Positions 3,934 through 49,482 of a DNA stretch of 50,055 nt are shown here, in pieces. The stretch's first letter is position 1, and the number at the start of each line of letters is the position of its first letter. The DNA is from Chromera velia (taxonomy: Eukaryota > Sar > Chromeraceae), in NCBI GenBank assembly GCA_018398765.1, contig JAHBMJ010000246.1, forward strand, positions 1 to 50,055. The letters run 5' to 3'. A program made the translations under genes and the position numbers. The notes below the pieces were generated by a model. That model did not search any database, had not been told where the DNA came from, and saw only the letters and a list, made by a program, of their open reading frames with translations.

Positions 3934-6698
3934 CACATGCCCGCCCACCAGACTAACGTCCACGCTTGGTTCAAATGCAAGCATACACCTCACACATGTT
4001 CACTCACAGGGCGGGTGGTTAGGAAAATGTACACAACAAACAATTTCAGACACTCTGACTCATAACTCTTACCTGAGAGTCTCCTTGTGTAGTCTCTGAA
4101 ATACGCATACGCGAGATCAAAGATTAATTGATTAAGTGTTCGCATGCAATGTATCACGAACTTCAAGTCTAAGCATTCATACGTGTAACTTGTCTCAGGG
4201 GATTCATGTGATTTCTGGCTAGACCAATACGATTGGATGCACTCTGTTTCTCTCCCTCTTGTTCCAGATTCTTCCCATCAAGGGTCACTGGATGAATGCA
4301 TTAGGTGCATTGTCTATGCGATCGAAGAATAAGACTTGAGTCATCCTGGTTCTATGGATCGCGATCTTTCCCTTCCTGTGAATAGATACCGAGTAGGTAT
4401 CACACCATGCAGCCTGTCATAAATCTAGAAGGCACACACAATGCGGCCACTACTGTATACACCCTGGGCACTCCCCCCACACAGCGTACACACACTCGGT
4501 GAGAGTATAAAGAAGCTCAACTCTGCATACTCAGAAGACTTAAGACTTTGAAACTCCGTAGCCGACTACCTGCTGACTGAGCAAGGCAATCAACTCAGAG
4601 GTTAACAAGAACACACTTTCCAGCCAGACCGAAAGCAGAGAGCAATTCAAAGCACACACATTCAGAATAAAAGTAAACTGGGGTGCTGCACTGGCTTGCA
4701 TATGGATATCATTTGCAGGGTTTGACTCCCTAACACGAATGACTGAAGCGCCTTCTGCCCGCCGGCTTACAACACACACAACGTGCGCTGTACGCTCACC
4801 CCCAATGCTCCTCACAGCGGCTTCCTGCGATGTGTCAAAACTATCTGAATGACCCTGGTGTTTTCGGCCATCCTGTGATCACCTCTTCCTTCTCTGCTTC
4901 ATACAGCGACCACCTGTCTCTATATAGAGACAGCCCAACCTCACTGCAGAATTTGTACCCCAAACTGCATACCAGATTCAAAAACATGAACACTCGGGCG
5001 ACTCCCTTGATTGAAATCGAGGCGACTCAACCAGAGCACAAGTCGACGCGACCGAAATGTACTACACGCATGCTACTTCACTTGATGTGCAGTCTTCTTC
5101 TGCAGCAAGTGCATGAATACATCCGATCTCACTCGGGCTTCGACCGTCTTGCTCGGGCTTCAACCGTCTCGCTACATCAAGACACCCCATGCTTCGATCA
5201 CAGTTTTTCATTCAGATAGCTCGATCGATTCTTCTCTGACATGTGCCTCTTTTATTAGAATGTTTAGTATCTAGGTTTAGCATGCTCTCTTCTCTTCTCA
5301 GGAATTAAAGAAAAACTAAAATCCATAGATTGACACACCTAACTTCCTGGCACTAAACCAAGCTCTCCGTCTGATGTGAATGGTAATCGCCCGCTGCAAT
5401 TCGAAGACATGCAGCTTACCGCAGCTTGCCCAACTGCGGAGGCAAAGAACTGCACACTCTCTTAAGCAGTCTGACCCAACAGCCAAACACAGTGCATGCC
5501 ACTCTCGAAAACTCTTTAACCAAACATTGGAGATCCGATGTGCCAACCTTCCACCCTTCTTTTCCCTTCTCTCCGTCTCCTTGTTTTTCAGGGTGTCTGT
5601 TTCTCTTTGCTTTGAGTCTCGGAAGTCCATCTCCCCTTCGATCTTTCTTTTTTCTGTATTATCCTCCCACACCCAAACGAATAGAGGGAAAGGTCAGAGA
5701 ACAGATGAAAATAAAACACATTCACCCTCACGACATCACCTTGCCTCCTGTCTCTCTCCCCTTCTTTCAATTTTGCTTTTATTTTCTTTTCTCCCCAACT
5801 ATCTTCAACCCCCATTCATCTTTCATAAATAGAAAAAGAAAACAATCAGAGAGATTCAGAGAGACACACAAATGAGAGACGATAGACAAATGTACCGGCC
5901 ACCACCAACCATCATCATGAGTCTCACCCCATACACACCACCTCCATCTCCCCTCCAAACAAATTCCTCCAAACACAATAGAAACAGAAAAGTTCCAACA
6001 AGCTTCCAAGCCTCCAAGAATCCATCTACGATAATAGCTCCTGTGTCGTGTGCTTCCGTATGATGCAACCGCCATGCTCCCATGGCACTTCTGCGCAGTT
6101 AGAACTTCAAGGCGGCTTGAGACTCCCAGTGATGTCCAATAAATCAGACTGAGCACGAAAGAACCTTCTTCTCAACCAAAAGGTCGCTGCACCTTGATAA
6201 AGCTCCTCTGTTTTAATGTGTACAAGAAAAACACTCCTGCACAGCGGCCAAGAGATCCTGCTTCTCTCTTTGGGGCACTTTCTCCGTGGGCAACAGCGTC
6301 TCTGCTTGATGACGTTATCAGGGGTCAAAGTCAGTCTCCTCAATCTTTTTCCTCACTTTTTCCTGCTTCAAGCTCCAAGTTCTCCTTCACTCCTTCCAGT
6401 AAGGTTCTATGAATACTGCTCTGCTGCCACAAGCGGTAGAAAGCAGAAATACCTCTCAGACCTCTTCAGCTCCTCATCTTCCCTCGCAACGCCACAAAAT
6501 TCATGATAGAATGAAACAACACAACGGAGCTGAAAACTGTCTGTCAGTGAATCGATCAATCCTATGGCTATCATTGCACAGTGTACTACTCATTTCATTG
6601 AGTGGACAGCCCACGTCTTTACTGAAAGCTCTGATGGATCTCAACAAGCTCCATCACACTGTCTGCCCCTGTGCAACCAAAAGCTCTGCTAAACCACA
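3934..6698. other. Interior between the 345-bp repeats, no recognised coding
   Basis: About 2.77 kb of moderately AT-rich DNA. Open frames of 90-150 codons occur on both strands, but none shows a gag, pol, transposase or other domain, and several overlap each other antisense. If the flanking repeats are LTRs, this would be a large non-autonomous (LARD-like) interior. Confidence 0.5.
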
Positions 6699-10173: not shown

Positions 10174-12237
10174 GTGGGTGGGGTGGGGTTGCTGGCTGTC
10201 CTTTCAGCACAAGACGTATCGGTGGTGAGTGAGGAAGGGGTGTGTGTAAAGGCGTCTGTAGAGGGAAAGGCACACGTTTTCTGCCGCTGAAATGCAATCG
10301 TACGGATGCATGCTGGTGACTCTGTGTTTGTCTGCTGTTCTTTGCACGCCGTTTTTCATAGGCAGGTCTCCGGCCGCCCGCGTACTCAACATACCCCTCT
10401 GCAGACTTTCTCCCACATCCCGCCTCAGACGTCCCTTTCTCCATCATGCTTCCCAGTCATCAGCCAGAATCAATTGATCGGGAGCGCCCCGGGCCTGCCA
10501 CCAGTTCCGCTGTCTTGCATGCAGTCAAAGCATGCACCAAAATTTTCCCCCAACCGATCCTTTCCTGCGGCGCGTGCTGCAGGGAGAATCTCGAAAGACA
10601 GGCTTCTTGGAAAAGATGAGGGACCAAGCAATTGGAGCGCTACGTCAATCTTTTGTGTCTCCGAGTTCTCCCCCCCTACGTTCCCGTGTATTTTCATTCT
10701 TTCTCTTCTTTCGGACTTTCGCGTCATGGCTTGTTGTTTGCCTGCCTCTCCACTCTTATTGGAGACTTCCCGATGGCCTCTTGGTCTTTGAATCTGTCCA
10801 ACTCTTCGGTCCTGTCTTGGAAATTTTTTGACTCCGCCTCTTTGGGGAGCAACGCCCATAGTTGGCGGTGTTTTTGATCGGGGGGTCCTTCCTGTCGTTC
10901 CCCCAACGGAGTAACAGTCTATGAACGATAAGGAGACAAGAAAAATCGACAACCTGTCACCCGTCCTGGAAAGCCGCACATAATACCTCTTCTCTTGTTT
11001 TCCTTTTCAGGCCTCCTCCTGTATGCCCTCTCTTGCCCTCAGCTGTTTTCCGCGCCCCGCTCACCCCACCTCCAAGCACATAAGAATTATGATGTTGCGT
11101 ATTCACGCCATAGAATTCTTCCATGCACTCACTCATCGTGCAGGTCTACGACGTCTGTGGTATCCTCTTCTCCCACGAGGACCCGCTACGGGACTATGTG
11201 CGTCTGAAAGGAAAGGAAATCTGTCTGTCTGCATGTCTGGTTTTTGTTTGTCTGTGTCTGAATCTGTGCCTCTCTTCTCTTCATTGGTTTCTGCCTATCC
11301 TTTTGTACGTCTGTATCGTGAAAACAAGTAGAGAGGCCAGGGAAACGGAAAGATGTACAAAGTGTGTCTGTGTCTGTTTCTGCCTTTCTGTCTCGCTGTC
11401 TCTCTGGGTCTGTCTGTTTCAGGAGGTCATTTATCATTCTTTTCTGCCTTCTCTGGGGCCTTGCGTAAGCAGCAGAAAGTCGCCCGTTAATTCAGTGATC
11501 GCGTGAAATCCTGTCGGGAGGGGTAGAGGAAGCCACACAGTCTGTGCATTGGTCTGTCTGTGTTTCAGTGTTTAGCTGCAGAGTTGGATTCAAAAGCAAG
11601 ATTTAAATGCCCCTCGGTCACTTGTGCGTGCGGCTCGTATCCCCCTGCAGATTGCCTCCTCTTCCTGTTCCCCTCAGGTCGAACAGTCCGCGGTCACATC
11701 CTCTCCCTCTCCTTTCAGTGCTTCAGCGGCTTTGACGCAGGGACAGGGAACGGCAGGGCTGCTGGGGGTAAGTGCACGAAGGGGTGAGGAATACTGACAG
11801 AGCGCACGCAGGGTTGCAGGCAGAGAACGTGGCCATGCGGCCGAAGTGATCCAAAAGGTCTGGGAGAAGAAGGCAGTTCGAAACGTGTTGTTCGGGAGAC
11901 TGTCCCCAAATCAAATAGCTCCTCTCGTCATTTGTGTGTTCTGTTTGTGACCATGAACTGCAGTGATGAGGTGTCTCTTTGTGTCGACGGGGTGATGCTT
12001 CTCCGAAAAATGTTTTGTCTCTTCAGCAATCAGACAGCTTTTCTAGTGTCCTGCTGTGAGATTTTGTGCAACGATTCCTGTCCTCTTGCAGGTTGCCTCT
12101 TCTTCGTCTTCGTCTTTCTCTTTCTCTCAGCTCCAGTCTCAAGAGATGGGCCCAACCTGTGGGACAGCTGACGAACTGGATTTGGGAGCCGCTGACCCGC
12201 CTCCTCTGGAGTCCGCGGTTTCCTCTTCTGCCTCTCT
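10174..12237 (+). other. Unresolved stretch downstream of the PP2A exons
   Basis: Several acceptor-like pyrimidine tracts followed by CAG are present, for example near 10518, 10583, 11144 and 11719. The short frames after them do not resemble later PR65 repeats. A frame at about 12092-12237 encodes a Ser-rich acidic stretch (QEMGPTCGTADELDLGAADP) that runs into the minisatellite and could be an exon of the following unknown gene. No function can be assigned. Confidence 0.4.
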
Positions 12238-12790
12238 TTCTTCTTCGATTCCTTCAGGACAGGGAGAAATGAAAGGAAAGGGGGCTTTCTTCTTCGATTC
12301 CTTCAGGACAGGGAGAAATGAAAGGAAAGGGGGCTTTCTTCTTCGATTCCTTCAGGACAGGGAGAAATGAAAGGAAAGGGGGCTTTCTTCTTCGATTCCT
12401 TCAGGACAGGGAGAAATGAAAGGGGGCTTTCTTCTTCGATTCCTTCTGCTTTCTTCTTCGATTCCTTCAGGACAGGGAGAAATGAAAGGGGGCTTTCTTC
12501 TTCGATTCCTTCAGGACAGGGAGAAATGAAAGGAAAGGGGGCTTTCTTCTTCGATTCCTTCAGGACAGGGAGAAATGAAAGGAAAGGGGGCTTTCTTCTT
12601 CGATTCCTTCAGGACAGGGAGAAAGGAAATGAAAGGAAAGGGGGCTTTCTTCTTCGATTCCTTCAGGACAGGGAGAAATGAAAGGAAAGGGGGCTTTCTT
12701 CTTCGATTCCTTCAGGACAGGGAGAAATGAAAGGAAAGGGGGCTTTCTTCTTCGATTCCTTCAGGACAGGGAGAAATGAAAGGAAAGGGG
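12238..12790. repeat. 49-bp minisatellite of 12 units, each with a splice-acceptor-like core
   Basis: The unit contains CTTTCTTCTTCGATTCCTTC then AGGACAGGGAGAAATGAAAGG. There are twelve copies of the TTCTTCGATTCCTT core. Eleven continue into CAGGACAGGG; the copy at about 12432 is truncated. Most spacings are 49 bp, so the frame rotates by one base per unit and every frame meets a stop within three units. The array therefore cannot be one continuous exon. Confidence 0.95.
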
Positions 12791-13455
12791 GCGCAAGGGC
12801 TAAGGCTAAAGCGGCTGGAGGGAAGAAGAACAAGTGGGCGGACAGACCGGAGACACGAATAAAAGGGGAATTTTCGGAGGGTGAGTCGGTGTGACACTGT
12901 CATACAAGCCCGAAAGCATTGATGGCGGGAGCAACGCAGCTTCATCTCGCAATGTCTGTCCTCATTTCGTGCGCGGCTGTTAAGGGCGCATATAGCCGGC
13001 CGTCAAAGAAACTGATTCAATTTGGAATGCGATTGGTTGTTTTAGAAGTATCGATCCACGGAGACGGATAGCGGTGGCGCTTCGTCGCCACTGTCCTCTG
13101 GTGTTTCACCATCGTTCAATCAATTGTGCGTGCAGTTATGAAGAGGCCGGACCGTGATGGGTGGAGGTCTCTGAGAACTGCCCTTGACGTTGCAGTCAAA
13201 ACTTTGCTTAGAGGGTTGACGGGGGTTGAGCCTCAGCACATTGGGTGGTTCGACAGTAGTTTCGACTTCCGAATCGATGCACAGAGGCCTCAATTCACGG
13301 CACGCCTCTATTATAACAATCCAAGCTGGAGAGACGAGGTCGAGAAAATCTTGAAACGAGGAATGAAAGAAACGTCGATACAGCTTTCGGGAACGACCAT
13401 CGGCGTCACATTCTGCTATTGTCCAGAATCAGAACTGAAAAAGCTAAAATCCTGA
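12765..13455 (+). CDS. Unknown protein, last two exons
   Basis: Exon A runs from the last acceptor in the minisatellite (12765) to 12880. It encodes a basic, disordered Ala/Lys/Gly segment including AKAAGGKKNKWADRPETRI, and ends at donor GTGAGT with one base left over. Exon B, 13136-13455, begins in the matching phase after GTGCGTGCAG. It encodes a compact 105-residue region with DGWRSLRTALDVAVKTLL, then IGWFDSSFDFRIDAQRPQF, and ends with TGA. The predicted alpha-helix then alternating strands look like a small folded domain, but I do not recognise it. The 5' part of the gene is not determined. Choice among the upstream tandem acceptors decides the reading frame. Confidence 0.5.
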
Positions 13456-39079: not shown

Positions 39080-40836
39080 ATAGGCCCACGGAGGATGGGG
39101 GGAGAGAAAGACAGGGGGGGGGCGAGGAGAGAAAGCAGAAAGAGGAAGGGCAAAGAAGACAGGCAGCGGGGAGGAGGAGAGGTTTAGATGGAGAAGAGAG
39201 AAAGACCGTATTAATTCATCGAGTGATTGAGTTGTTTTTTGCATAGGCGCTTCACTAGAATCCTTTTTTGATGCTTTCTCCTTGTCATAGGATCACATAC
39301 ATTGAAGTGTCCGCAGTCTATCAGAAGTGGGCTGCGAACATGAACAGGCGGAAAGGTTTGGTGGTGCCCTTCTGTACGCAGAGAGCTTCTTTGTGTTTGT
39401 TTTGTCGATGCAGAGAATGTGAAGCGAGGCGATCTCCTCTTCATTTGAACGCAATGCTAAGAGAGGCGTTCATTGAAGGAGGATGATCGCCTTGCGGACA
39501 ATCAAATTTTGGTCGAACTGGGTTGTTGATAAGTACATTTTGACCAGCCCGAGATGTGGAAAGGAAAGGAGTGAGTGACTGCGCTGAGACTAGCAGACAT
39601 GGAATGATGAGAGGAAACGACACTGCAGTATAGGCAGAAGAAGATCGGATGTTTGATTCATGCACCCCTCCTTTCATCCTACAGATAGAACAGCATTGTG
39701 TCTGACCTTCCAGAAGACAGCAGGGCTGAACTTTGTGTTCAGCCTGATTCTTAGCGTACGTGTGCCTGTAGGTTTATCCCTACACCGATTTTGAAGAGCT
39801 TCAATGATGTTGCACATCTTTTTGTGTTCTCTAAACTCTTCACGACATCTGTCTGCATGTATGCCATTGCGATTATGCTCGTTTGCTGTTGAAGCCGCAG
39901 AGAGAGAAATCGAGAACAGTGTCCGAGCGGAGTAGCTAGTTCCAAATTTTCTTAGAGGAGGGCAAAAAGACGGAAAAGGGGGTAAGAAGGACAACAGTCG
40001 AGAGAAGAAGCCCTGTTACTAAATGTGTATACCAATTGTTATAAAAGCTGTAGGAAAATGTGTAAAACCTTGAAAAATGTATTTAATAGTTTTAATTTTC
40101 ATTTGAAAACTGGGAACTCTTCGAAACGAAAATAAACGAGACCCAAGTTCGCCGCCTATAACTATTATTAACTACATGTATTAAACTGCATACTATAACT
40201 ATACATACAAACTGTTTATTCAGTATTTAATATTGTATAGCTGTGTATCGTTTTCGTTCATTTAAAATAAATGATAAAAATCACTAAAACTCTGAACGCA
40301 GTGAACGATAACAATCATAAGATATAGATTCAAATTGAATTAAATTTTTAAAACGGTTCCATTGTTTTCAAAAGCATTGTTTCATTTATCATAATTATTG
40401 TATGAATAGCCTAATAACAATTTAGGACTTCAGGGCTATATGCAAAGTACTAAACTTATCTTAAGTTTAATGAAAAAAACATGCAAGGATCGATGAAATA
40501 GCTTGGATAAAATTCTTTTAATTTTGAAGACTAGGTTGAGCATTAACACGGTTTTCGTTCTAATTTGAGATACAATTTCATGAAGAATCAAGAAAAAACA
40601 AAACCTTATTTTACTAAAAAAACTAGCCAACAGTATGACCCTAGCTAGAAGCTGCAGCCTTGAGGGCGTAACAGTTGTACACTCATATCTCTTCCCTTTA
40701 TTCTACATACTTGTATATAGAAGTCTGCTAGGAAGTTAGAAGTCCGTTGGGACGACAATCGTATATCTTCTTCCATCCTTGCTCATGAAACTCTTTCTCA
40801 CTCATGACAGCATGCAGCACGCAGTAGCCTGCATAT
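39080..40836. other. Intergenic, becoming strongly AT-rich
   Basis: Purine-rich just after the helicase stop, then unremarkable, then strongly AT-rich from about 40010 to 40640. Short frames exist, but none has a motif. A sequence GTAGCCTGCATAT precedes the second copia element. Confidence 0.55.
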
Positions 40837-41079
40837 TGTATGCCATAACTTATGCACCCGCGGCCCCACCTGCGTATGTACCACGCCGGCGCCCGACGCA
40901 AGCCCTGCCATGCCTTGCCGATCTAATTGAACACATTGGACTCAGAGATGCCCGAATAGAACAAATCAGTCTGAATCCGTCTGCTGATTGAGTGGAAAAG
41001 TCTATGAACAAACCTCTTGCATACTCCTACGAATGAGTAGAATGGACCCGTGAATGCTGCTTCACTGTGGTCTATATCA
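40837..41079 (+). repeat. 5' LTR of copia element 2
   Basis: 243 bp, TGTATGCCA...TATATCA. Most differences from the right copy are C/T or G/A. Confidence 0.85.
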
Positions 41080-41091: not shown

Positions 41092-41233
41092 TGGTTTGAT
41101 CCGCTTCTTGCTATGCAGTGGTAGAGGACTCTTCTTCGTTTGATCATGTGGTGCACTCTCGGCATCTACACAATAGAGTCGACGTCATCCTCCCCGGCCT
41201 CGCTACGACCTCTCCTCACTGGTCAGCTAACCA

Positions 41234-41695
41234 GTGTCTGTTGCCTCACTTAACAAAATTCTTACTCCAGGCAAAGTCTATCCGAAAATCTGCTCGCACA
41301 ACAGCACTGAGACCATCGTCTCTGGTTGCTCTTCTTCATTTTCCTTGTTGCTTGTTTTGCAAGACCCTGAGGAGGTCACCCTGAATGCTTGCTCTGACCC
41401 CTCCAGCATCTCCACTGTCTTGAACGGTCTCCCTGCAGATGTCTGCGTAGCTGTGGAGAATGCTTTGGCAGCTTTACGTGCCGCACAGAATTCTGCACTC
41501 CTCTCTTTTGCCTTTCATGGATTCTTTACGATCCTGGACAGTGGAGCCAGCCACACCTACTGCACTCGTGGGTGGCTGCGCAAGTAGAAAGAGGAGGATG
41601 GGCTCACATGGATCGAGCTCCGCTTGCCCCGGCCTTCCACCTCCTTGACTGCCAACGGTCAGGTGCCTGTAGAGCTAAAGGCCATTATCCCATGT
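41234..41695 (+). pseudogene. Protease fragment of copia element 2, left part
   Basis: Contains the copia protease active-site motif ILDSGASHTYC at about 41531-41563, followed by an in-frame UAG at 41585. The frame then runs on until it is cut by the TRIM-like insertion at 41696; the protein resumes near 43781 with residues such as LEINAITPVLIGN. Confidence 0.8.
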
Positions 41696-42702
41696 TGCTA
41701 TATACTAGTCGAGACATCCGAGAAAATGAAATTCAAAGAAAGAGATTAAAGAAAGAAAAATGATAGAAAAAGTATGAGAAAGTGATGTCAAAAGTATTAG
41801 AAATTTAAATAAAATGAAAAAGTATTGGAAAATGATAGAAAATAATATGAAAAGGTGCAAAGAATTTAACATTTTACTTAGACCAAGAAACAAGACTGAA
41901 CGATTGAAAATAAAGATAAAAAGAAGTAAAAAGATAAGGAAAGACAAGAACCAGGCAAACACGATCCTTTAGTCAGGACCCAGCCTCTTTGGCCTAGTGG
42001 TTAGGATGAGCGGCTTGGACCGAGAGGTCCTAGGTTCGAGTCCCACCATCGGCAGAATTCCAAAATCTATGTATCCGAATAAAGCGCCGTCTAAAATCAA
42101 TAGAACCGAATAAAACCCGGTCTGAAATCGAAAGAAGAAAGAAGCGCGATCAGAAATCGAGACGTCGAATAGTGCGCAGTTTAAATTTAAATAACTGTCA
42201 GGCCGAAAACCGAATAGTGTGCGGTCTGGATTTGAAATACCCGAATACCGTACGGTGCATGCTCAGAATACCCGATTTTACCTGGTCGAATTCCGTGCGG
42301 TTTAAATTTAAATTTAAGTGTAACGATTATTTGGTTCTGAGGTCGAATAATCGCCTGGTCTGAATGGACTGTCGCATTTGCAAAATCGGATCACGCAAGA
42401 AAAATTAAAATCTAGATTTCCCTAAGAGGACCTCCGAGGTCGTCGGTCATTTCGAGAGGTCCGACACCGTCAGAATTGCCTCTCTGAAGTCAACTTCCAA
42501 ATCTGAGCAAAAACACGAAGATCTGCAGTCGATACTGACGTAAAATCGATTGATTACTGATAGATCCTAGCGCCATAGATTGAACTTTCTTGAACCAAAC
42601 CTCTAACTCTTCAGACACTTAAAACTATCTTGGAGCCTCACTGGAGTCAACCTTGCGCCACTTCCCTTTATCTATTCTAAGGGCTTTTAGTAGCTCTTAA
42701 CA
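41696..42702 (+). repeat. Left LTR of the TRIM-like element
   Basis: 1007 bp. AT-rich, purine-biased first quarter, then a tRNA-like segment (about 41983-42054), then a periodic region (about 42060-42370) with repeated CGAATA and GGTCTGAAT words, then a unique tail. Confidence 0.8.
41983..42054 (+). other. tRNA-derived sequence with Pol III A and B boxes (left LTR)
   Basis: TGGCCTAGTGG fits the A-box consensus TRGCNNAGYGG, and GGTTCGAGTCC fits the B-box GGTTCGANTCC exactly. The D-arm words resemble tRNA-Glu/Asp. Acceptor and T stems do not pair well, so this is a tRNA-derived promoter rather than a tRNA gene. Confidence 0.7.
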
Positions 42703-42764
42703 CGTGGTGACGCCTATGTGTTTGTAATTTGGGCGTGGAACCCCAAATTTAAAAGAGAGACGCA
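42703..42764 (+). other. 62-bp interior of the TRIM-like element
   Basis: Holds TGGTGACGCC two bases after the left LTR and the purine run AAAAGAGAGA five bases or fewer before the right one. Nothing else would fit. Confidence 0.65.
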
Positions 42765-43776
42765 TGCTATATGCTAGTCTAGACATATAAGAAAATAAAG
42801 TTCAAAGAAAGAGATTAAAGAAAGAAAAATGATAGAAAAAGTATGAGAAAGTGATGTCAAAAGTATTAGAAATTTAAATAAAATGAAAAAGTATTGGAAA
42901 ATGATAGAAAATAATATGAAAGGTACAAAGAATTTAACATTTTACTTAGACTAAGAGACAAGACTGAACGATTGAAAATAAAGATAAAAAGAAGTAAAAA
43001 GATAAGGAAAGACAAGAACCAGGCAAACACGATCCTTTAGTCAGGACCCAGCCTCCTTGGCCTAGTGGTTAGGATGAGAGTCTCGGACCGAGAGGTCCTA
43101 GGTTCGAGTCCCACCATCGGCAGAATTCCAAAATCTATGTATCCGAATAAAGCGCCGTCTAAAATCAATAGAACCGAATAAAACCCGGTCTGAAATCGAA
43201 AGAAGAAAGAAGCGCGATCAGAAATCGAGATGTCGAATAGTGCGTGGTCTGAATTCGAATAACTGTCAGACCGAAAACCGAATAGTGCGCGGTCTGGATT
43301 TGAAATACCCGAATACCGTACGGTGCATACTCAGAATACCCGATTTTACCTGGTCGAATTCTGTACGGTTTAAATTCGAATTTAAGTGTAATGATTATTC
43401 GGTTCTGAGGTCGAATAATCGCCCAGTCTGAATGGACTGTCGTATTTGCAAAATCGGATCACGCAAGAAAAATTAAAATCTAGATTTCCCTAAGAGGATC
43501 TCCGAGGTCGTCGGTCATCTCCAGAGAGCCGACACCGTCAGAATTACCTCTCTGAAGTCAACTTCCAAATCTGAGCAAAAACACGAAGATCTGCAGTGAC
43601 GGTCAATACTGACGTGAAATCGATTGATTACTGATAGATCCTAGCGCCATAGATTAAACTTTCTTGAACCAAACCTCTGACTTTTCAGACACTTAAGACT
43701 ATCTTGGAGCTTCACTGGAGTCAACCTTGCACCACTTCCCTTTGTCTATTCTAAAGGCTTCCAGTAGCTTTTAACA
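42765..43776 (+). repeat. Right LTR of the TRIM-like element
   Basis: 1012 bp, about 90 per cent or more identical to the left copy by eye, with mainly transition differences and a few small indels. Confidence 0.8.
43051..43122 (+). other. tRNA-derived sequence with Pol III A and B boxes (right LTR)
   Basis: Same A and B boxes as the left copy, unchanged. The part equivalent to the anticodon arm differs between copies, so only the promoter boxes are preserved. Confidence 0.7.
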
Positions 43777-43780
43777 ATGT

Positions 43781-45841
43781 CGAAGCCCCTCCGGTGATCT
43801 CTCTCTCGAGGCAGACATCCTGGAAATCAACGCGATCACTCCGGTCTTGATCGGAAATGCGGCATTGATTCCCCTTAAAGCGTTATTTAAGTATGCCACA
43901 AGCATTCTTTCCGTTCCCTATCGCCCCTCTCTGTACTTTCAACGCTTCTCAAACGACTTGTTCTTCTTTGCGTTGTCTTAGCCCCCAGAGCTTTGCACGA
44001 ATGACACCGTCTCTACCTCTAAACCTACAGAGCCCCGTACCCTTATCATGGCGTCTTTACATTCAGTGCCAACTTCATCCTCTGTTGTGCCCTCAGAGGA
44101 CAATGGACGCTACACACCTCTTCGCTGCCCATCCGACTCGAGTCATACTAAACCGAATGTAGACCTGCCCCAGCCGCAGACTGCTGGGCCCTCTTCGACT
44201 GCTCAGTCGGTCGTCTCCAGCCAACTACCCTTGACGATGGTCATGAGCCCCTATCTCCTTACCGGACCAGGTCAGCCGTGCTCATGCTGTCATACAGCTT
44301 CTACAACTGAAGCTATAGCGTGCCCCGCGTTGTACATCAAGGGTCTGCCTGCTGAAAAGAAGAAGCGAAAGCGCCGTCTGTGCAAGCGCCGCCCTTAAAA
44401 GGGTAGCCGCTCCCCTCCAGCTGCTGAGTTGGAGACCATCAGTTTTGAGATGGTCGATAAATTGATTTGTGCACACCATGTTGAGATTAGGCATGCAAAC
44501 GTCACAAAAACCTGGATTTCCCTCCGTCGGGCATTGAAAAGGCACCCCAAAGCCCCTTTTTACGGTATTTCATGATGAGCTGTGCAGCGTGCCCTTCAGC
44601 CATGCATCAAGGGGGGGACTTGCGTACACGTGAAACCTCGCAATGTTTCTGATGGTTGCACATCTCCCTTGAAGGTCACAGGTCCCAGGCAATGCCTGCA
44701 AGCTGACCTAGTGTACGGAAGGGCCGACCGCCCTAACGCATGCTATTACCTCACTCTGAAAGACGAGTGGAAAGACGACCCGCACTATATTGCTGTGCCA
44801 GACAGGTGTGCCGCCACCCTTCGTGAAGCCTACAAGGGGTGGGTAGTGACCTCAGTGGGGTACTATCCCAATGAGGTCATCACGGATTTAGGAAAGGAAT
44901 TTTAGAGGGACTGGGCAGACTTCTTATCTCAGATAGAAGTCGGGCACACGCTTGTCCCCGTCGGTTGGCACCGGACCCTCAGGCACCTCGAGCGTGCTCA
45001 CTGGGAGGTCGATATAATTCTGCGGGCGATTATCCACGACAATGGACTGCCCATTGATTCATGGCCTAACGTGGTTCAATTGGCTATCGAACACTACAAC
45101 CGCTATCCAGGTCGAGGGGACATTTCTCCTGCAGAACGTTGACATGGTGAGCCTATTGTTTTCCTGAGAATTCAGGCAATGCTTGACCTCCTTTCAGCAG
45201 AAGAGTTAAAGAATGACCCTTCTTTACACACTTTTTCTGCAGGGGATCGGGTGTTGTTCAATCATCCAGAAAAGCAGAGGGACAAGAGAGAGGATTTGTG
45301 GGAAGATGCAATCATCAAACAGAGATACGGGGGGCATGTATACACCATTCAGCTGTTTCGCATCCAGCACTCTATGCTTGCACACATTCGGTGTCTTCGT
45401 CCCTCCTCAAAGACCTCCCCCCCCGCCTCCTGTTCTTCCCTGCCGCACCCTTTGAATCTGCCATACCCTCCCTCCAGCTCTCCTTCAGATAGTCAGCCCT
45501 CCCCGCCTTTACTACCCCATGCTTCATCTGCTATCCCTTCGGCACTGTCTGAGCCCACCCTCGGTGAGTTGCCTTCTATTCACGATTTTCATCAGGGAGA
45601 GATGATCATCTGGGAGGTCCCCAAGACGCAGAGGCGCTTCTTGGGGAAGGTGGTTGGGATTGACAAGAAGACAGAACTCTTTGAAGTCCATACATGGGGC
45701 TCTCTCAGGCACGGTGCCCTGAGGAACCGCACGTTTGCTCCCATGTGGCGCCGTCCCACAGGGCACCGTGTCCAATACCAGTACCAGCAGCCCCCTTCCC
45801 ACAACCCCAACATCTGTATCATTGCCTTAGATGAGATTTGA
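43781..45841 (+). pseudogene. Protease end, integrase and post-integrase domain of copia element 2
   Basis: After the insertion the frame resumes with LEINAITPVLIGN. Integrase catalytic acids are all identifiable: Asp in LQADLVYG (about 44697), Asp in VITDLGKEF (about 44882), Glu in LERAHWEVD (about 44988). Interruptions are UAA at 44396, two UGA at 44570-44575, UAG at 44903 and UGA at 45140. From about 45602 the extra domain seen in element 1 recurs (MIIWEVPK, FLGKV, WGSLRHGALRNR). A Pro/Ser-rich linker precedes it. UGA ends the frame at 45839. Confidence 0.82.
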
Positions 45842-49228: not shown

Positions 49229-49236
49229 ATTTGTGT

Positions 49237-49482
49237 TGTATGCCACAACTTATATACCCATGGCCCCGCCTGCGTATGTACCACGCCAACGGTGTCTAAC
49301 GCAAGCCTTGCCGCGCCCTGCCGATCTAATTGAACACATTGGACTTAGAGATGCCCGAATAGAACAAATGAGTCTGAATTCGTCTGCTGATTGAGTGGAA
49401 AAGTCTATGAACAAACCTTTTGCATACTCCTACGACTGAGTAGAACGGACCCGTGAATGCTGCTTCTCTGTGGTCTATATCA
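49237..49482 (+). repeat. 3' LTR of copia element 2
   Basis: 246 bp, matching 40837-41079. Ends at TATATCA, after which the two flanks differ. Confidence 0.85.

Follow-up and report, generated by a model that had tools for sequence, protein, structure and literature searches.

A tRNA-like module in the LTRs of a Ty3/Gypsy-like retrotransposon family of Chromera velia and a probable internally deleted copy

The window analysed here, a stretch of 50,055 nt from Chromera velia (contig JAHBMJ010000246.1), contains a non-coding unit of 2081 bp which is very probably a single member, with an internal deletion, of a Ty3/Gypsy-like family of LTR retrotransposons. Coding and deleted copies of this family share their LTR, including a 72 nt tRNA-like module with an A box and a B box, and this is the new point of our analysis. 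The family identity is supported by the common LTRs, the primer-binding site (PBS), the purine tract and the 4-bp target site duplications, and by relatives that contain gag, protease and reverse transcriptase (RT) sequences.

The initial annotation had described two TG...CA repeats of 1007 and 1012 bp around an interior of 62 bp that holds a PBS and a purine tract, flanked by ATGT duplications, and these coordinates were confirmed (Table 1). The two LTRs are identical at 955 of 1006 aligned bases, and 45 of the 51 mismatches are transitions. As judged by eye, the PBS can pair over 10 nt with the 3′ terminus (CCA added) of the host tRNA-Trp(CCA) (L070); the host tRNA-Val(TAC) likewise matches, over the first 7 nt only. 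The unit had also been proposed to split a copia protease frame. The frame in question (41231-41584) gave no Pfam match at E values up to 0.1 and only a DSGAS motif was recognised by eye, and this part of the description was dropped. Direct repeats at 40836-41079 (244 bp) and 49236-49482 (247 bp) are 90% identical and possibly represent the LTRs of a host element that received the unit; no matching duplication was seen by eye. A weak integrase signal (E 0.071) is present at 44579-44902, and a tandem repeat block with copies that are 83-100% identical spans positions 12219-12792.

Table 1. Features of the LTR unit and its flanks, with positions in the window.
Feature	Position	Strand	Remarks
Target site duplication ATGT, left	41692..41695	none	
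5′ LTR, 1007 bp, TG...CA	41696..42702	+	
tRNA-like module, 72 nt, in 5′ LTR	41983..42054	+	A box 41990-42001, B box 42033-42043
First TTTT past B box, 5′ LTR	42276..42279	+	possible Pol III terminator
Interior, 62 bp	42703..42764	+	junction at GACGC microhomology, single in assembly
Primer-binding site TGGTGACGCC	42705..42714	+	read from sequence; matches host tRNA-Trp(CCA) by eye
Polypurine tract	42751..42760	+	read from sequence
3′ LTR, 1012 bp, TG...CA	42765..43776	+	
tRNA-like module, 72 nt, in 3′ LTR	43051..43122	+	A box 43058-43069, B box 43101-43111
First TTTT past B box, 3′ LTR	43344..43347	+	
Target site duplication ATGT, right	43777..43780	none	

Exact A-box (TGGCCTAGTGG) and B-box (GGTTCGAGTCC) sequences are present in both LTRs of the unit, in agreement with the initial annotation, with a start-to-start spacing of 43 bases. 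An A/B-box matrix was derived from 40 of the 52 tRNA matches in the genome and gave a pair score of 33.0 bits for both LTRs. This is within the range of the host tRNAs (24.1-36.1 bits, median 32.3), while the maximum among 1000 dinucleotide shuffles of the 3′ LTR was 22.9 bits. The two modules are the top-scoring A/B sites on either strand of the whole window. When compared to the host tRNAs, the 72 nt module scored higher than all 400 shuffles in each of the 40 LTR pieces that span it (39/39 distinct LTRs); the lowest copy scored 39, the shuffle maximum was 38, and 67 other windows of the 3′ LTR did not exceed 31. The commonest best host match was tRNA-Thr(CGT) (16/40 pieces, 15/39 distinct). 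The A/B pair outscored all shuffles in every piece but L018 and L021 (38 of 40 pieces, 37 of 39 distinct LTRs), and the exact sequence GGTTCGANTCC was found in only three of the 39 distinct LTRs. No tRNA gene was called at the modules by ARAGORN, nor by Rfam at E values up to 10. A functional tRNA is thus rejected, and the module is regarded as a promoter-like segment and not as a tRNA gene: of the tRNA-type Pol III promoter that had been annotated, the A/B pair in each LTR stood, and a tRNA call by these programs did not follow. Since the module occurs in all 39 distinct LTRs that span it, the predicted Pol III-type promoter belongs to the Ty3/Gypsy-like family and not to the miniature unit. 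As far as the sequences can tell, the module would already have been in the LTR when the sampled subfamilies diverged. A tRNA-Ala(GGC) gene with an encoded CCA end (L078, contig C4039) is bacterial-looking, and C4039 is a possible contaminant contig.

A genome-wide count, as suggested by the initial annotation, located the LTR, over a substantial length, at no fewer than 41 places in the assembly, the two of the window included (best 40 of 69 candidates scored), with solo LTRs, 5′ LTRs and 3′ LTRs among them. After removal of duplicates the set consisted of 43 pieces, 41 of them distinct; L024_1 and L034_1 are second reads of both LTRs of another short unit on contig C703. The LTRs of the family diverge by up to about 20%. 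Nine solo-looking LTRs have both ends, and five of these are flanked by a 4-bp duplication (AGTC, GCAT, GCTT, GACA, CCTA). The remaining four are without duplication; where L016 and L020 begin is uncertain. This count leaves out L022 and L038, which were assigned to 3′ LTRs from their upstream bases. Contigs C1804 (L037 271-462) and C2135 (L028) have the same 5′ flank of the LTR, with C1804 breaking within that LTR, and represent either alleles or a misassembly. Downstream of the tRNA-like module the LTR contains degenerate repeats of ~30 bp (43141-43381; CCGAATA...GGTCTGAAAT). L047 contains, ~50 bp ahead of the 3′ LTR, a second, short version (4360-4416; GACGCATGCTATGTGCTAGT) of the purine-tract end together with the LTR start, and variants of it occur in L040, L045 and L055; the extra purine tract could be a second priming site.

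The initial annotation had also proposed to look for an autonomous partner with the same LTR ends. Coding relatives with gag, protease and RT were found, none of them demonstrated to be intact. On contig C3468, LTRs on both sides and GTAG/GTAG duplications enclose an interior with matches to Retrotrans_gag (9.8e-13), gag-asp protease (2.2e-07) and RVT_1 (8.9e-26), in which the protease precedes the RT and no integrase lies between them. The best PDB matches of this RT were 4ol8 (1.2e-42), which we take to be Ty3, and 7q5b (Ty3 Gag-Pol; 9.6e-42). With a Ty3-like RT, and with the protease ahead of it, in relatives that share the LTR, the family is Ty3/Gypsy-like. The RT-side DNA of C3468 gave 20 matches across 15 contigs. 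Twelve fetched 5′ LTRs are followed by a PBS, and seven of these have an RT match on the same strand 4.1-4.8 kb downstream (C141, C235, C548, C1814, C879, C3468 and C3889; C141 and C548 partial). As to the other five, C3708 has no RT match despite a continuing contig, C1561 and C3197 are cut by contig ends, and the units of the window and of C703 are short. Two parts of the RT-side query that adjoin in C3468 are 4.0-4.6 kb apart on C879, C3381 and C4000, so that C3468 has probably undergone a deletion of its own and there would be longer copies, or the other copies gained ~4 kb beside the RT. The stretch after the RT, in which RNase H and integrase are expected, is absent from C3468, and among the best 150 of 635 candidates, in a list read by eye, no match to the integrase profile PF00665 was located inside a known family element.

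The unit had initially been read as TRIM-like, and TRIMs with LTRs of this length and a tRNA-derived segment inside them had not been recognised as a known class. TRIMs with tRNA-like LTRs are in print: in Kojima 2024 (PMC10886601) they are named Helenus and, together with Cassandra and Ajax, form TRIMp3. The Helenus screen was for elements under 1000 bp and the families measure 311-1263 bp. A true TRIM of this kind would be a miniature element that depends on Pol III for its transcription and is moved in trans. This would be in line with a non-coding unit that has PBS, polypurine tract, tRNA-like LTRs and a clean duplication, but we consider it improbable. The LTR is common to coding copies, and the unit of 2081 bp is longer than the Helenus families. 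The junction in the 62-bp interior has one exact match in the 178-Mb assembly, which consists of 4040 contigs and has gaps, and the 31 further matches at 2-3 mismatches stay below the reversed-pattern control (66). The interior comprises ~11 bp from the PBS end and ~51 bp from the purine-tract end of the family interior, with small further changes, and GACGC is found on both sides of the join, beside the PBS; it looks like the product of a deletion at this microhomology. The second short unit, on C703, speaks for a miniature family, yet the junction of its 799-bp interior was also found only once exactly, and this unit has no target duplication. The 3′ LTRs of C744 and C1536 come with 99.7% identity to the last 293 interior bases of C703. 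Since both contigs end within this shared interior, they are maybe further copies of the C703 type. The unit of the window and that of C703 look like separate deletions, without an amplified miniature family. The first TTTT past the B box also lies inside the LTR, ahead of the PBS, and an RNA ending there could not be a genomic template. Because its junction was found once and its LTRs are common to a family with coding copies, the unit is not regarded as a TRIM class of its own, and the TRIM reading was not upheld. Far less probable still is a SINE family or SINE/LTR chimera with a module that moves alone, for which the A and B boxes with their 43-base spacing would speak. When the module alone was used as query (best 40 of 55 candidates scored), 31 matches were located in LTRs already listed and nine elsewhere. 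Six of these nine were fetched, and all six align to the family LTR, one with an insert of ~66 bases; the matches near contig ends at C742:41248, C2929 and C2176 are outside these six. Among the fetched matches there was no free module copy outside an LTR, 4-bp duplications are located at LTR ends in five of the nine solo LTRs, and the fetched copies have TG...CA-type ends and form no array of three or more units, as would be seen for a satellite. A SINE origin is therefore disfavoured, and the chimera suggested by the initial annotation is not borne out.

It is quite possible, although short of probable, that the module descends from a tRNA or SINE that inserted long ago into an ancestral LTR, and is now a fossil with no present role. 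To compare rates of change, we used a tree of 35 LTRs with 815 placements of the boxes and 820 windows of module size. The boxes showed 0.0286 changes per sequence-site versus 0.0453 overall (5.6% of the 815 placements were as low). On internal branches these values were 0.174 and 0.462 changes per site (3.8% of the 815 placements as low), and such slow boxes argue against a fossil, as does the fact that the A/B pair of 37 out of the 39 distinct LTRs still outscores every shuffle despite the divergence within the family. The whole 72 nt module, on the other side, does not change more slowly than the LTR (as slow or slower: 66% of the 820 windows). The rate of change at CpG sites is about threefold that of other sites. 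With CpG sites set aside, internal changes per site amounted to 0.190 in the boxes, 0.189 in the rest of the module and 0.404 across all non-CpG sites, so that the boxes are no slower than the remaining module. This is what a fossil would lead us to expect, as are the missing tRNA call and an ordinary retention of TTTT. The first TTTT follows the B box after 230-239 nt in 29 of 33 copies measured. Of 35 copies 31 retain it; among AT-only 4-mers, 61% are retained equally well. A conserved Pol III terminator is not supported, since this retention is no better than that of the AT-rich background. The constraint on the boxes is weak and suggestive of a working promoter; that the LTR module is active as a promoter is a tentative reading of the sequence comparison.

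For the unit as a deleted copy of the coding family, the ordinary LTR pathway would apply, with a tRNA primer at the PBS, second strand synthesis from the purine tract and integration with a 4-bp duplication. A template switch or a deletion at GACGC may have removed the interior, either prior to insertion or at the present site. If the deletion preceded insertion, a coding relative would have supplied the proteins. The genomic RNA would be made by Pol II. The LTR module may be able to recruit TFIIIC and Pol III, and the predicted Pol III product would be a short LTR transcript (~0.3 kb) that terminates with the TTTT ~233 nt past the B box. A further reading, quite possible though short of probable, is a coding Ty3/Gypsy family with dual promoters: transcription of the genomic RNA would be by Pol II, and a Pol III promoter of tRNA type, captured by the LTR, would make a short LTR RNA, or would bind TFIIIC and keep the LTR open or insulated.

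The unit shares with Helenus (Kojima 2024, PMC10886601) the tRNA-derived A/B segment in both LTRs, the PBS and polypurine tract between them, solo LTRs with duplications and the lack of a tRNA call. Fungal Helenus was aligned to tRNA-Thr-CGT, which is also the commonest best match here, while the 4-bp duplication of our unit fits the description of animal and not of fungal Helenus. It differs by its length with LTRs of ~1 kb, by an LTR common to coding Gypsy-like copies and by its single junction. With regard to the definition of Helenus/TRIMp3, tRNA-derived sequence is present in both LTRs, the unit exceeds the short length, and a family of such non-autonomous units was not found in this contig-broken assembly. 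Cassandra likewise has a Pol III internal promoter within the LTR, which is predicted here, but according to the same source this is of the 5S type, in plant elements of 565-860 bp with no coding partner known (PMC10886601).

The relatives of the unit have the protease-RT order, Ty3-like RT, PBS, polypurine tract and TG...CA LTR of Ty3/Gypsy elements (Metaviridae). Unlike these, the LTR has a tRNA-like module, and the copy in the window is without a coding interior. TRIM and SMART elements are also non-coding LTR units with PBS and polypurine tract, but the LTRs here are ~1 kb long and amplification of the unit is not demonstrated.

Kojima 2024 (PMC10886601, section 4.2) argues that coding partners of TRIMp3 elements have to rely on Pol II and that, given the weak processivity of Pol III, the two are unlikely to have long parts of the LTR in common. 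The same paper notes similarity to a portion of a tRNA in "not a few" LTRs of Repbase, and coding Gypsy cases may therefore exist undescribed. In a literature search covering titles and the beginnings of abstracts, no tRNA-like LTR on a coding Gypsy element was named. Coding copies with a tRNA-like module in the LTR run against this published expectation for TRIMp3 partners (PMC10886601). They suggest a simple route by which TRIMp3 elements may be born, namely the loss of the interior from a coding element in which the promoter is already part of the LTR, and the promoter question becomes testable within one genome.
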